DNA from: Armatimonadota bacterium | GTDB lineage: Bacteria > Armatimonadota > Fimbriimonadia > Fimbriimonadales > Fimbriimonadaceae | DNA: 64,000 nucleotides | Reading direction: 5' to 3' | NCBI GenBank assembly: GCA_022563855.1 | Contig: JADFMN010000003.1 | Span: 62,001-126,000, forward strand | In this document: positions 2,578 to 60,068 of the stretch, in pieces | Layout of the letters: every line of letters begins with the position of its first letter | Numbering within the stretch: position 1 is the first letter of the stretch | The notes under the pieces: generated by a model | What the model saw: the letters and a program-made list of their open reading frames with translations, nothing else | What the model was told of the DNA's origin: nothing | Database searches by the model: none | Position numbers and translations under genes: made by a program

Positions 2578-2961
2578 CCGCGATCCAACGACTGGCGGTT
2601 TTACTCAGAGTACCGACATCGTGTCAACGGGGCTGAGGCCGAATCCTGAAGAATGTTGCGACATGCCCGGGTCGGATGTTCCGCGGAGCATGCCCGCCGA
2701 CGGAACCAGACGGCGGCCAACGCAGTCTCAATGTTGGCTACAATTACTGCGAGTCGGCGTATTCGAGGGTCTCGATGGCGTCAATCGAAACCTGAGCGAT
2801 CGTTGCAACGTTTTAACTAGTAGGCGACTGAGTTTCTAGTTCGGGCTAGATTCGGGTTGAGTCTGTCGAACTCGTGAGACGAGATCAGCGCCGTTGACGC
2901 ATTGATTGGTGGTGCGAATGGTGAGTGAGGTGATCGGGATATAAAGTTCGTCAACATCAAG
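2578..2961. other. intergenic gap between topA and the PIN-TRAM gene
   Basis: This divergent 384-bp gap must hold promoters for both flanking genes. The only element I can point to is a TATAAA at 2940-2945, 16 bases before the GTG at 2962, which could be a -10 box. I see no RNA gene, repeat or ORF worth calling. Confidence 0.5.
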
Positions 2962-4119
2962 GTGATTCTAGCGGTGATAGGCGCCGCGGTAGGTCTCTGG
3001 GCAAGCCTGGAGTACATGCCGTACGCGTTGGACTACCTGTATCAGAACGTTGAAATCCAGTCGTACGGCTCAAGCGAGATGGCGGGTGATGAAACGGTGG
3101 GCACGTCTCCGTACCCGTTTACGGATCGTCCCGCCGCTCAAATAGGCTTGGGATTGCTCGGCCTGCTGATTGGTGGGGCGTGCGGCGCCGCCTTAGCCGA
3201 TGCCGCCACTTTTGTCGGCGTCTGGTGGCGGCGGATGGCGATCGGCAACAAGGTGTCGATATTCGTCGGCCTCATACTCGGCATCATCGGATCGCTGCCT
3301 TTCCTTTCGGCGATCGAAGGGCTGGAGGGCGCGCTGAGAGCACAGGCGACGGTTGGCGTCGTGCTACTGTTCAGCGCCGCCGCAATTCTCGCTCTGCACG
3401 CGATGCGCGACGTCCTTCCATGGCAGAAGGAGTCGGTTCGTCGCCGGAATTCGGGCATCAAGATACTGGACACGAACGTGATCATCGACGGGCGGATTCA
3501 CGACGTCGTGAACGCCGGATTCTTAGAAGGAGAGATTTACGTGCCGAAGTTCGTGCTGGATGAACTTCAGCACATCGCAGATAGTGCCGATTCGCTGCGC
3601 CGTCAACGAGGTCGTCGCGGCCTGGAAATCCTTCTCTTGATGCAGGAGAGCCACAAGCTGGAGATCGGAACGCATGACGCCAGAGTCTCTGCAGACGGAG
3701 ACGTCGATTCGCGGCTGGTGCGGATGGCCAAGTACCTCGGCGGCGACCTGGTGAGCAACGACTTCAACCTCAATAAGGTGGCAAGCCTTCAAGACGTCCG
3801 CGTTCTCAACATCAACGACTTGGCTCTAGCGCTTCGACCCAACGTCTTGCCAGGCGAATACCTCGCTGTCATGATCACGAGAGAGGGTAGCCAATCTGGA
3901 CAGGGGGTTGGATATCTGGACGACGGAACCATGGTTGTCGTCGAAGACGCTGAGGGCCGGACGGGAGAAACACTGAACATATGTATTACGCAGGTCATTC
4001 AAACGGAACGTGGGAAGATGATCTTTGGCGCATTTGACGAGCAACCGGAGGATCAGGGGCAGCACGACCATCGATCGACGGAAGATCACCCGGCCAAGAA
4101 GCAGCCGACGGTAGAGTGA
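2962..4119 (+). CDS. membrane-anchored PIN-TRAM domain protein (YacL-like)
   Basis: Predicted membrane-bound RNase-like protein of the YacL family (385 aa). About four hydrophobic segments fill residues 1-150. A PIN domain starts near residue 168 (LDTNVIIDGRI, with later acidic residues in DVDSRLV and SNDFNLNK). A C-terminal TRAM domain follows (about 290-355), which would bind nucleic acid. The GTG start is the first possible one after an in-frame stop at 2926. The stop overlaps the ispDF start (GTGA), so the two are probably co-transcribed. This resembles the yacL-ispD-ispF order of Firmicutes. The RNA target is unknown. Confidence 0.88.
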   Translation: MILAVIGAAVGLWASLEYMPYALDYLYQNVEIQSYGSSEMAGDETVGTSPYPFTDRPAAQIGLGLLGLLIGGACGAALADAATFVGVWWRRMAIGNKVSIFVGLILGIIGSLPFLSAIEGLEGALRAQATVGVVLLFSAAAILALHAMRDVLPWQKESVRRRNSGIKILDTNVIIDGRIHDVVNAGFLEGEIYVPKFVLDELQHIADSADSLRRQRGRRGLEILLLMQESHKLEIGTHDARVSADGDVDSRLVRMAKYLGGDLVSNDFNLNKVASLQDVRVLNINDLALALRPNVLPGEYLAVMITREGSQSGQGVGYLDDGTMVVVEDAEGRTGETLNICITQVIQTERGKMIFGAFDEQPEDQGQHDHRSTEDHPAKKQPTVE

Positions 4120-5237
4120 GGATCGTCGCGTTTGTTCTAGCGGCCGGCGAGTCTCGGCGCTTTGGTCGCAACAAGATGAGGCTCGACGTTGACGGCCAGC
4201 CGGCGTGGCTCAGGTCTTTCCTCGCATTCGACCGGCACCCCGAAGTTCACAGCACGGGTCTTGTCGTTTCTCGCGATCTGCACGACGAAGTCAAGCGCGC
4301 AGCGCCCAGCGCTGCTTTTGTCGTGCTGGGCGGAGAATCCCGTGCTGAGTCGGCGCGTGCCGGGCTCGCCGCCCTCGACGAGTCATGCGACGTCGTCCTG
4401 ATTCACGATGGAGCACGACCGTATGTGACGCCTGGGGTGATATCGCGCGTAATCCAAGGCGTGATCGACCACGGTGCCGCGTACCCGTGCATACCGGTGA
4501 CGGACACTGTTAGGCTCACGACCAGCGGCGGCCTGCAATCGATCGACCGGGATCAGCTTCATTTTGCGCAGTCTCCGCAGGGCGCAAGGCGAGAGCTGTT
4601 CGAACGTGCGTATTCCAACGGCGACGATGAGTACACGGATGACATCGCGGCAGTGCTGGCGATCGGCGAAGCCGCCATGCCCGTTGAGGGCGAGGTCTCG
4701 AACCTCAAAATCACCTATCCTGGAGACGTTCAGCAGATGAAAGCGCGACGAGAGACGAGGACCGGATTCGGGTACGACATTCACGCGTTTTCGTCCGACC
4801 CGGACCGCGATCTGTGGTTGGGCGGGGTTCGATTCGGGTCTGAGGAGCGCGGGCTAATGGGCCACTCAGACGCCGATGCAGTGCTGCACGCGGTGGTCGA
4901 TGCGCTGCTAGGCGCAGCAGGTCTGGGCGACATCGGCAAGGCTTATCCAGACACCGCGCAGGAGTGGAAGGACGCCCCCTCGTCGCTTTTTCTCCGGGGT
5001 TCCGCGCAGAGGGTGATCGAAATGGGCTGGAGGATCTCCAATATCGACGTCACCGTTATCGCAGAGATGCCTAAAATCGGACCCAGGCGTGACGAAATGC
5101 GACGGACCATCGCTGAGCTTTGCGGGATCGAAACGGAGCGGGTAAACGTCAAGGCGACGACCAACGAGAAGCTCGGCCCGATCGGTCACGCCGAAGGCAT
5201 AGCTGCCATGGCCGTCGTGACCCTAGACAGTTCGTAG
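4116..5237 (+). CDS. ispDF: bifunctional IspD/IspF isoprenoid enzyme
   Basis: Fusion of two enzymes of the MEP isoprenoid pathway (373 aa). Residues 1 to about 210 are IspD (2-C-methyl-erythritol-4-phosphate cytidylyltransferase), with the N-terminal nucleotide loop AAGESRRFGRNK and VLIHDGARPYV. Residues about 214-373 are IspF (2,4-cyclodiphosphate synthase), with GFGYDIHAF, GLMGHSDADAVLH and ATTNEKLGPIG. These keep the zinc-binding Asp and His residues. IspE, which acts between the two reactions, is not in the window. The GTG start overlaps the upstream stop by four bases. It converges on the comF-like gene with only seven bases between stops. Confidence 0.95.
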   Translation: MRIVAFVLAAGESRRFGRNKMRLDVDGQPAWLRSFLAFDRHPEVHSTGLVVSRDLHDEVKRAAPSAAFVVLGGESRAESARAGLAALDESCDVVLIHDGARPYVTPGVISRVIQGVIDHGAAYPCIPVTDTVRLTTSGGLQSIDRDQLHFAQSPQGARRELFERAYSNGDDEYTDDIAAVLAIGEAAMPVEGEVSNLKITYPGDVQQMKARRETRTGFGYDIHAFSSDPDRDLWLGGVRFGSEERGLMGHSDADAVLHAVVDALLGAAGLGDIGKAYPDTAQEWKDAPSSLFLRGSAQRVIEMGWRISNIDVTVIAEMPKIGPRRDEMRRTIAELCGIETERVNVKATTNEKLGPIGHAEGIAAMAVVTLDSS

Positions 5238-57808: not shown

Positions 57809-57814
57809 ATCTTA
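57809..57814 (-). promoter_or_regulatory. -10 box TAAGAT of the sulfatase gene, leaderless spacing
   Basis: TAAGAT on the minus strand overlaps the birA stop codon and ends six bases before ATG 57802. Confidence 0.5.
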
Positions 57815-58525
57815 CCGCTTGCCGAGGATCGCATCAGCTGCGTAGACTTTGCGCTCGATTCCATCGACTGTGCAGATCAGCTCGCCCTGCTCGCCGATGC
57901 GCGTCGCGACGGCTTCTTCGCCACCGACAAGCTTGAAAACCTTGCCCGGCGTGTCGTCTCGTGGCGACCAGACGGGCGCAAGGGACGCCCAACTGTCTGG
58001 CTCGGGAAGGGAAGCGATGCAGTCTAAGATCGACTCGGCCACCGCTCGCGGGTCAGTCCGCACGCCCCGCTCGATCAACACGCTCGTCGCCTTTGCCGAA
58101 ATCTCAGATGGCATGGAAACCTGGTTCAGGTTGATACCAACGCCGATCACGGGAACCCCGGAAACCAGCTCGGTCAGAATCCCGCCGATCTTCTTGCCGT
58201 TCAGGAGGAGGTCGTTCGGCCAGTGGAGCCTGCAGTCGAGCGCCTCGGCTGCCGCCGCCGCGACGGCCATCCCAACGAGCCACGGGGAGTGGTGACTGCG
58301 GTAACTTGGATAAAGCAGCGACATCGTGAGGGAGTCGTTTGCGGCGCTGAGCCACGCCCTGTCGAACCGTCCGCGACCATGAGTTTGGTGTGACGCAAAG
58401 ATCACGCCGGGAAGTGCTTCGGCACCAAGCGCGATCAGGTCGGCGGCGACGTCCTGCGTTGATGACACGGAGTCCTGGAACATCCACGGACCGTCGTCGA
58501 GGGGCGATTTCACTGTAGCCGTCAA
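57812..58525 (-). CDS. birA: biotin--[acetyl-CoA-carboxylase] ligase
   Basis: Attaches biotin to the carboxyl-carrier protein (237 aa). Motifs: VSSTQDVAADL, the biotinyl-AMP loop HGRGRFDRAW, LHWPNDLLLNGKKIGGILTE and GVGINLN. There is no N-terminal DNA-binding domain, so it is a ligase only and not a repressor. The listed start is TTG 58525; a GTG four codons later is possible. It starts eight bases after the upstream unknown gene and is probably in the same transcript. Confidence 0.93.
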   Translation of the reverse strand: MTATVKSPLDDGPWMFQDSVSSTQDVAADLIALGAEALPGVIFASHQTHGRGRFDRAWLSAANDSLTMSLLYPSYRSHHSPWLVGMAVAAAAAEALDCRLHWPNDLLLNGKKIGGILTELVSGVPVIGVGINLNQVSMPSEISAKATSVLIERGVRTDPRAVAESILDCIASLPEPDSWASLAPVWSPRDDTPGKVFKLVGGEEAVATRIGEQGELICTVDGIERKVYAADAILGKR

Positions 58526-58532
58526 TGATAGC

Positions 58533-59024
58533 CTATGCTGGCTCTATATCGAGATCGCAGCGCGCCGCAAGCTCGACGACCAAGGTGGAGTACGAGACGT
58601 CGAGCCCGTTTCTGATCCAGCCGATCGGCACTCTTACGCGTCCAGAGACCAGGTGCGCGACGGGCTTCACGGTCATCGATCCGCCCGCGTACTTCACCTC
58701 GTACCGGTCGTTTGTTTTCGCAATGATGCTGTCCACGTCCTCATAACGAATCCGCTTCGTACCGAGCGCGAGCTGCACTTCCAAGACATCGTCGTCGAAT
58801 CGGTAGACGGTATCTTCGATCTGACGTTTGACGATATCGACGGCCGCCATGCGACCGATGTCGAGCGCGGCTCCGGCGACGTTGACGAGGCTCTTCTTGA
58901 TATCAGATTTTGACGCACCCTCAGCTGCGGCTTTCGTTCGCCGCTTTGCACTTTCGACAGCCGCGTCCGAGCCCGCGCCGAACCAGTGCAGCAGGTCGGG
59001 GGAGCGGTAGGTGACGGAATCCAT
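58533..59024 (-). CDS. unknown protein, 163 aa
   Basis: No family recognised. The first half is helical and basic (ESAKRRTKAAAEGASKSDIK and AALDIGRMAAVDIVK). The second half is beta-rich (DVLEVQLALGTKRIRYEDVD, YEVKYAGGSMTVKP). No signal peptide or membrane helix. It starts 12 bases after the arginine-kinase-like stop and ends eight bases before birA, so it is the middle gene of a probable operon. Confidence 0.7.
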   Translation of the reverse strand: MDSVTYRSPDLLHWFGAGSDAAVESAKRRTKAAAEGASKSDIKKSLVNVAGAALDIGRMAAVDIVKRQIEDTVYRFDDDVLEVQLALGTKRIRYEDVDSIIAKTNDRYEVKYAGGSMTVKPVAHLVSGRVRVPIGWIRNGLDVSYSTLVVELAARCDLDIEPA

Positions 59025-59036
59025 GCAGATACGCCT

Positions 59037-60068
59037 CTAGCGCTGTTCCAAGCGCTCACGGACGAATACGGCTCTATGGCGCGATGCGATGCGTTGGTCC
59101 TGGGTTCCTTGCACGTCGAGCGTGGAAATCCACCGATCGACCTCTCGGTGGGAGAACGCGAAATCCGGCAACCCAGCGCTGCTAGCCCAGCGCACCCAGG
59201 CAAAAACGCGCATCGCGTCGGCCAAGCTGATCTCCGTCGATCCGATGGCGTAATCCCGCGCTTGTTCAGCCTTATCCTGCAGCTCCGACCTGCGAACCTC
59301 CATTCTCGCCTTCTGCTCCTCTTCGATGAGGTACTCGCCCGCGCCGACGAACTCGGGCATCCTCTGCTCGGTCGTACTCACTTGAAAGAACGCGCCCACC
59401 GCGCGGCTGGACTCGCCGAACAGGCCGCGCGCGGTCAGTCCCCAAGCCGACAACGCTTTCAGCACGTTCATGAGCCGCTTTGTGTGGGCAAGCCCGATCA
59501 GGTGGAACAGGGCAGATCGCCGGCGAGCGTGGCCGAGGTTTGACGGGCTCGCGGTCAGGTAGCCGAGCTGGTCGCTGTGCATGAACTGTAGCCGGCTGGC
59601 CAGTTGTGAGAGCACGCGATCACCCGCAGCCTGCGCCGTCACGATCGACCAGCCGGGGGTGAGCGCCTGTAATCTCAGATGGTCCTCCTCGTTGACCATG
59701 ATGCTGACCGTCTTGCCCCGGTCCAGCAGTAGCGCCCGGCCCGGGTCGTTGCATCGAAACTCCGGCGAGACCAGGCGGCTGCCGAGCATGAAATCGCGCT
59801 CGGCGTGCGTGAGGTTTTCGTAAGTTGCGAGATCCAGCTCCGCGTCCTCGACGGCGTCTTTTACGAGCTGTAGTATCGTCGTCAGCTCGTGTTCGCTCGC
59901 GTGGTGCGGAAACGGGAACTCGCGGAGGTTTCGCGCGTACCGCTGGCGCGAGCTGATCACGATCTCCGAGATAGGCGCGTCGCCTTCGAGCCACGCGGGC
60001 GTCGGCATGCCGCTCAGAACCATCTTCTTCCAAGTCTCAGAGTCCGGCGTAGTTTCTTGCATCTGCAC
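59037..60068 (-). CDS. McsB-like protein (ATP:guanido phosphotransferase family) lacking the catalytic cysteine
   Basis: Homologue of protein arginine kinase McsB (343 aa, normal length). Family landmarks: SSRQRYARNLREFPFP (39-54; usually SSR-IRLARN), MVNEEDHLRLQAL, GYLTASPSNLG (169-179) and GAFFQVS. In McsB the last-but-one stretch reads GYLTSCPTN, and its cysteine is catalytic; here Ser174 takes that place and the Arg-rich region after it is altered (GHARRRSALF). Activity is therefore doubtful or changed. No mcsA, clpC or ctsR gene is nearby. GTG 60068 or the ATG two codons on may start it. Confidence 0.85.
   Translation of the reverse strand: MQMQETTPDSETWKKMVLSGMPTPAWLEGDAPISEIVISSRQRYARNLREFPFPHHASEHELTTILQLVKDAVEDAELDLATYENLTHAERDFMLGSRLVSPEFRCNDPGRALLLDRGKTVSIMVNEEDHLRLQALTPGWSIVTAQAAGDRVLSQLASRLQFMHSDQLGYLTASPSNLGHARRRSALFHLIGLAHTKRLMNVLKALSAWGLTARGLFGESSRAVGAFFQVSTTEQRMPEFVGAGEYLIEEEQKARMEVRRSELQDKAEQARDYAIGSTEISLADAMRVFAWVRWASSAGLPDFAFSHREVDRWISTLDVQGTQDQRIASRHRAVFVRERLEQR

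Follow-up and report, generated by a model that had tools for sequence, protein, structure and literature searches.

A McsB lineage with serine at the catalytic cysteine position in Armatimonadota, probably an active protein-arginine kinase

A stretch of 64,000 nucleotides from an Armatimonadota genome (hereafter the window) encodes a homologue of the protein-arginine kinase McsB in which the position of the catalytic cysteine is occupied by a serine (Ser174). Comparative sequence evidence indicates that this protein is probably a catalytically active McsB-type protein-arginine kinase, and that it represents a phylum-wide subfamily in which the thiolate has given way to Ser or, in a few lineages, to His or Asp. 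The cysteine counts as the catalytic hallmark of both McsB and the phosphagen kinases, and the C167S variant serves as the usual kinase-dead control. A phylum that has fixed a C167S-type change in an otherwise frozen active site is a direct test of the need for a thiolate: either the cysteine is dispensable or a whole phylum uses a natural "kinase-dead" McsB. We found no paper that deals with Ser-type McsB or with any McsB of Armatimonadota; most subscription papers lay outside the coverage of the search, which makes this weak evidence of novelty.

Fold and active site of the Ser-type protein

The gene (positions 59037-60068, minus strand) starts with GTG and encodes 343 amino acids; an alternative ATG start lies two codons in. 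The host assembly (G000, with the window at C3:62001-126000) comprises 3.18 Mb and is 96% complete; by sequence, its closest relatives belong to the Fimbriimonadaceae. The product contains the PF00217 catalytic domain (120.2 bits, Pfam gathering cut-off 22.4), and McsB structures align to its residues 24-274 (E 1e-37). An AF2 model built from 63 aligned sequences (pLDDT 93.8, pTM 0.91) has its best PDB match in 6fh1, with a TM-score of 0.82 over 339 columns. Both 6fh1 and 6tv6, which are McsB structures, are matched over the full length (TM 0.82-0.83), dimerisation domain included, so the predicted fold is the two-domain McsB fold of a phosphotransferase domain and a C-terminal dimerisation domain. 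The protein is thus a member of the PF00217 family with McsB architecture. We did not file it as a canonical McsB because three defining features fail: the catalytic cysteine, the RDxxRA motif and the NCBIfam McsB equivalog cut-offs (182.7 versus 385 and 166.7 versus 500). We place it instead in a Ser-type McsB lineage that probably works like the canonical one. A whole-genome search for a second, canonical McsB, proposed in an earlier note on this DNA, returned none (next match E 0.14).

The shared PF00217 catalytic domain family also raises the possibility of a kinase for another guanidinium substrate, for example free arginine, as in bacterial phosphagen kinases. This is very improbable, given that the N-terminal phosphagen-kinase domain was not found (PF00217 is the only domain matched), that the full-length match includes the McsB-type C-terminal dimerisation domain, and that relatives of the gene adjoin mcsA and clpC.

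Alignment of the active-site stretch (GYLTASPSNLGHARRRSALFHL) against its 22-letter counterpart in McsB structures places TASPSN opposite TSCPTN, and the catalytic Cys of the CPTN signature is absent. The earlier note had read a serine in place of this residue, and the alignment bears it out: Ser174 (codon AGC at 59549-59547, minus strand) corresponds to Cys167 of Bacillus subtilis McsB. No intact cysteine aligns at the catalytic position, the only one in the protein being residue 106. A compensating cysteine elsewhere was ruled out, as the best cysteine column is occupied in only 48 of the 135 Ser-type homologues. Ser174 is followed by P175-S176-N177 (59538-59546, minus strand), in which the Asn is invariant and the +2 residue, Thr in all 75 Cys-type sequences, is variable in Ser types.

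The remaining catalytic residues are in place. R41-R43-R46 (59931-59948) correspond to R29, R31 and R34 of B. subtilis McsB, and the NEEDHxR motif N126-E127-E128-D129-H130-x-R132 (59673-59693) carries Glu120/121 and R125, with its Glu, Asp, His and Arg invariant. R183 (59520-59522) corresponds to R176, and R214-G-L-F-G-E219 (59412-59429) spans R207 to E212, with Arg and Glu invariant (all minus strand). The ATP-binding arginines R29, R34, R125, R176 and R207 and the catalytic E121 and E212 are therefore all present. Lys substitution has shown that R29, R31, R34, R125, R176, R207 and R337 are essential in B. subtilis McsB (PMC7235348). The stretches HARRRS (within GHARRRS) and RYARN, listed as deviations in the earlier note, were read correctly but are no functional oddity, since their arginines (R183; R41/R43/R46) are kept. 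The phospho-arginine (pArg) receptor is a different matter. Only a remnant of its RDxxRA motif persists (A328-S-R-H-R332-A333, 59070-59087, minus strand), in which R337 and D338 are lost and R341-A342 are kept; in B. subtilis, R337K abolishes activity (PMC7235348).

These differences give substance to a second alternative, a natural pseudokinase, in which the fold would still bind ATP, arginine side chains or both and would serve ClpC as an adaptor or read degrons, with no phosphate transfer. The C167S variant of B. subtilis McsB is used as a kinase-dead protein that keeps its kinase-independent adaptor function (PMC7235348), and this laboratory allele is what the natural protein carries. The lost receptor residues and the clpC genes adjoining mcsB in many Armatimonadota point the same way. 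We consider this reading unlikely, although it is the most serious of the alternatives, because of the pattern of conservation described below.

Conservation and selection across the phylum

McsB genes from Fimbriimonadales, the rest of the Armatimonadota and other phyla were aligned (B. subtilis numbering). Among 145 Armatimonadota homologues, the catalytic-cysteine site is Ser in 135, His in four, Asp in two and Cys in four; Ala, Gly, Thr and Asn never occur. The site is Cys in 71 of 73 sequences from other phyla and Trp in the other two. Serine is thus a near phylum-wide rule in Armatimonadota and no local loss, which answers the question of the earlier note whether it is conserved in a clade. 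The two Trp-type proteins (TAWPTN; L040 and L066) come from Bacillota and are not sister sequences; both genes adjoin clpC, and that of L040 also adjoins mcsA.

R29, R31, R34, E120, E121, D122, H123, R125, N170, R207, G211 and E212 are each 100% conserved in the 145 Armatimonadota sequences, and R176 shows no exception among the 225 aligned sequences. A dead enzyme should have lost some of these residues, yet both catalytic glutamates and six arginines are invariant. The restriction of the site to Ser, His, Asp and Cys likewise argues against a pseudokinase.

The Armatimonadota sequences come mostly from metagenome assemblies, and single odd cases may be contamination. On a FastTree phylogeny of 184 rows, with the catalytic site masked, a minimum of nine state changes is required at the site, five of them between Cys and non-Cys; long branches make some placements, and with them the number of origins, uncertain. 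Two of the Cys-type Armatimonadota sequences (L119 and L120) sit within the Ser clade and look like Ser-to-Cys returns. The other two (L168 and L174, from families f7 and f9) cluster with canonical McsB, and their McsA has the UVR tail; these may represent the ancestral state, transfer or contamination.

Several lines of evidence suggest that the serine itself is maintained. Purifying selection is strong (dN/dS 0.013-0.36, mostly below 0.16, in 16 measurable pairs). The serine is encoded by AGY codons in 74 genes and by TCN codons in 61, with at least 15 switches between the codon families on the tree. Each switch requires two base changes and passes through Cys or Thr unless these are simultaneous, so that Ser must have been regained repeatedly. 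This pattern, together with the lack of Ala, Gly, Thr and Asn, suggests that Ser is under selection, a result that a pseudokinase would not lead one to expect. Pro-Thr follows the cysteine in 75 of 75 Cys-type sequences, including the four from Armatimonadota, and is found in only six of 135 Ser types. In creatine kinase, the residue two positions after the cysteine lowers the pKa of that cysteine, and given this role, the drift of the +2 Thr in Ser types is consistent with a site freed from the need for a thiolate.

A decaying gene, or an assembly or contamination artefact in which the serine is meaningless, would be in line with the broken and relocated operon of the Fimbriimonadales, the low NCBIfam scores and the predominance of metagenome-assembled genomes. 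It is scarcely credible in view of the purifying selection, the intact gene in nearly all Fimbriimonadaceae members examined and the recurrence of Ser in 135 genes, which come from many separate assemblies.

Gene neighbourhoods and the reduced McsA

In many Armatimonadota outside the Fimbriimonadales, the Ser, His and Asp types have a gene with four CxxC motifs upstream, clpC downstream, or both, forming mcsA-mcsB-clpC or mcsB-clpC clusters. The upstream genes match the NCBIfam McsA model with scores below its cut-off and lack the UVR tail. The operon is dispersed in Fimbriimonadales, where family f5 keeps mcsB-clpC and mcsB is isolated in Fimbriimonadaceae. The genome studied here has no mcsA-mcsB-clpC cluster, and the earlier note was right that mcsA, clpC and ctsR are absent nearby. 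This holds only locally for two of the three, since the genome does carry genes for ClpC and a reduced McsA, and one for ClpP, at other sites. No CtsR turned up in the 61 genomes sampled from the order, in a search whose control was positive in Lactococcus. No match to the LMW-PTP family, which would indicate a YwlE-type arginine phosphatase, was detected in the genome.

The NCBIfam McsA model is uninformative in these relatives, as it mostly hits the UVR tails of long frames (600-700 amino acids) or short zinc fingers. UvrB or UvrC would give such UVR-tail matches, so a McsA profile specific to Armatimonadota was needed. This profile hits a single gene in each of 50 of the 61 genomes, and identifies in the genome studied here a reduced McsA (G000:C1:71258-71636, minus strand, E 2.1e-7), a candidate activator that keeps zinc finger 2 (CPLCGW...GCGLCHSVF) and has lost the cysteines of the first finger. 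McsA and McsB co-occur: both are present in 48 of the 61 genomes, McsB only in five, McsA only in two and neither in six (Fisher p 2e-4, kinship among genomes being ignored). In Staphylococcus aureus, the catalytic cysteine of McsB is oriented by a loop with which the C-terminal zinc finger of McsA makes contact (PMC12467219). Retention of this one finger of the putative activator while the remainder was lost counts against a pseudokinase.

In 33 of 33 loci (a few genomes are counted twice), the reduced mcsA comes immediately after ilvE, in the same orientation. Across Fimbriimonadales it overlaps or abuts ilvE (for example at L261, 2758-3136, minus strand), and annotation easily misses it.

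The ClpC of this genome (G000:C9, 835 amino acids) carries both TEHxLLG motifs (STEHLLLGL and GTEHLLLGL). In B. subtilis ClpC, the Glu of both motifs binds phospho-arginine. Elsewhere, an open reading frame (L235, G000:C3:309000-316000, 2805-4161, plus strand) encodes stand-alone ClpC-type N-domains with STEH and GTEH motifs and no ATPase domains; the product might read phospho-arginine as a free protein. Four other genomes (G006, G011, G013 and G016) likewise contain short Clp_N reading frames.

At the locus itself, mcsB is followed by an uncharacterised gene of 163 amino acids (58533-59024, minus strand) and a birA-type biotin-protein ligase (57812-58525, minus strand). The uncharacterised gene follows mcsB in 26 of 80 Fimbriimonadaceae loci, in some with birA also. 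Its family is single-copy, specific to Fimbriimonadaceae and sister families, and carries the motif KPxAHLVxGxxRVPVGWxRNGxEVPY. The product has no Pfam match above cut-off, and its AF2 model (pLDDT 77.6) suggests long helices and a beta domain resembling bacterial PH domains. A role as a new McsB partner is disfavoured, as the gene occurs without mcsB in five genomes (G022, G038, G050, G052 and G054) and is missing from family f2, in which mcsB is present; the two probably have no functional partnership.

Proposed mechanism and comparison with known systems

The active-kinase reading is favoured by the invariance of the other catalytic residues in 145 Armatimonadota sequences and by the Ser-type genes that lie beside mcsA and clpC in many of them. 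The repeated codon switches, low dN/dS, two apparent Cys returns, coupling of Cys with Pro-Thr, co-occurrence with McsA and its retained zinc finger 2, TEHxLLG motifs of ClpC and presence of ClpP support it further. Counting against it are the use of C167S as a kinase-inactive variant in B. subtilis, the loss of R337, the scores far under the NCBIfam cut-offs, a tiny own-genome McsA lacking the first zinc finger, and the missing LMW-PTP phosphatase. Of the options in the earlier note (pseudokinase, degron-binding adaptor or use of another residue), we favour the last, with Ser itself in the role of the cysteine.

Three in-plane hydrogen bonds reach the guanidinium in arginine kinase, from Cys271, Glu225 and Glu314 (PMC11075012). 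Conservative changes of Cys271 leave about 1% of the rate, a cost of about 100-fold (PMC4169622). A serine could make the same bond without the charge, and an active enzyme that is slower or differently tuned is therefore to be expected. In the mechanism we propose, MgATP would be held by N170 and by R29, R34, R125, R176 and R207, five of the six arginines that never vary. The substrate would be an arginine in a protein, whose guanidinium E121 and E212 would polarise and orient, in the manner of canonical McsB and arginine kinase. Ser174 would take the place of the thiolate and offer the guanidinium N-eta1 a hydrogen-bond partner that carries no charge. The Thr at +2 may tune the thiolate in Cys types, and would have drifted once it was no longer required. 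Activation would proceed through zinc finger 2 of the reduced McsA. ClpC, in which both TEHxLLG sites are kept, would then recognise the phospho-arginine mark, and ClpCP would degrade the tagged protein. Regulation must differ from that in B. subtilis, since neither the pArg receptor (R337/D338) nor the UVR tail of McsA nor CtsR is present, and this genome also lacks a YwlE-type phosphatase.

At the scale of the phylum, the better part of the evidence leans towards nearly all Armatimonadota running McsB-ClpCP degradation by arginine phosphorylation without the phosphagen-kinase thiolate (Ser, His or Asp instead), with a UVR-less and sometimes zinc-finger-2-only McsA and with the pArg receptor lost. 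The comparative data suggest that arginine-phosphorylation tagging operates here without CtsR or classical pArg-receptor control. Natural Ser, His and Asp versions, together with the two putative Cys returns, are on offer for the question of the thiolate, and the reduced McsA of Fimbriimonadales outlines a minimal McsA. Were the proteins dead, Armatimonadota would instead hold a conserved set of natural pseudo-arginine-kinases, likewise something new.

The Ser-type protein resembles the canonical McsB of B. subtilis and Geobacillus stearothermophilus (6fh1, 6tv6) in its two-domain fold (TM 0.82), in all catalytic Arg and Glu residues, and in being the only McsB-like gene in a genome that has ClpC and ClpP. 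It differs in having Ser for Cys, no +2 Thr and no R337/D338, and its gene lies away from mcsA and clpC in a genome without a detected CtsR. The B. subtilis C167S mutant (PMC7235348) carries the identical substitution at the identical position, whereas the Ser type is natural, phylum-wide and accompanied by further changes near the site, in the regulatory domain and in the activator. In the S. aureus McsA-McsB complex (8gqd), the McsB fold is matched (TM 0.75) and McsA zinc finger 2 has its counterpart in Fimbriimonadales; in contrast, Fimbriimonadales McsA has no UVR tail, that of this genome has no first zinc finger, and Cys157 is replaced by Ser. Finally, the arginine and creatine kinases (e.g. 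1sd0, arginine kinase C271A) share the catalytic domain and residue set, although the Ser type lacks their N-terminal phosphagen domain and has the McsB-type C-terminal domain instead. For Cys271 of arginine kinase, the title of the study of Gattis (2004) speaks of "partially active mutants".
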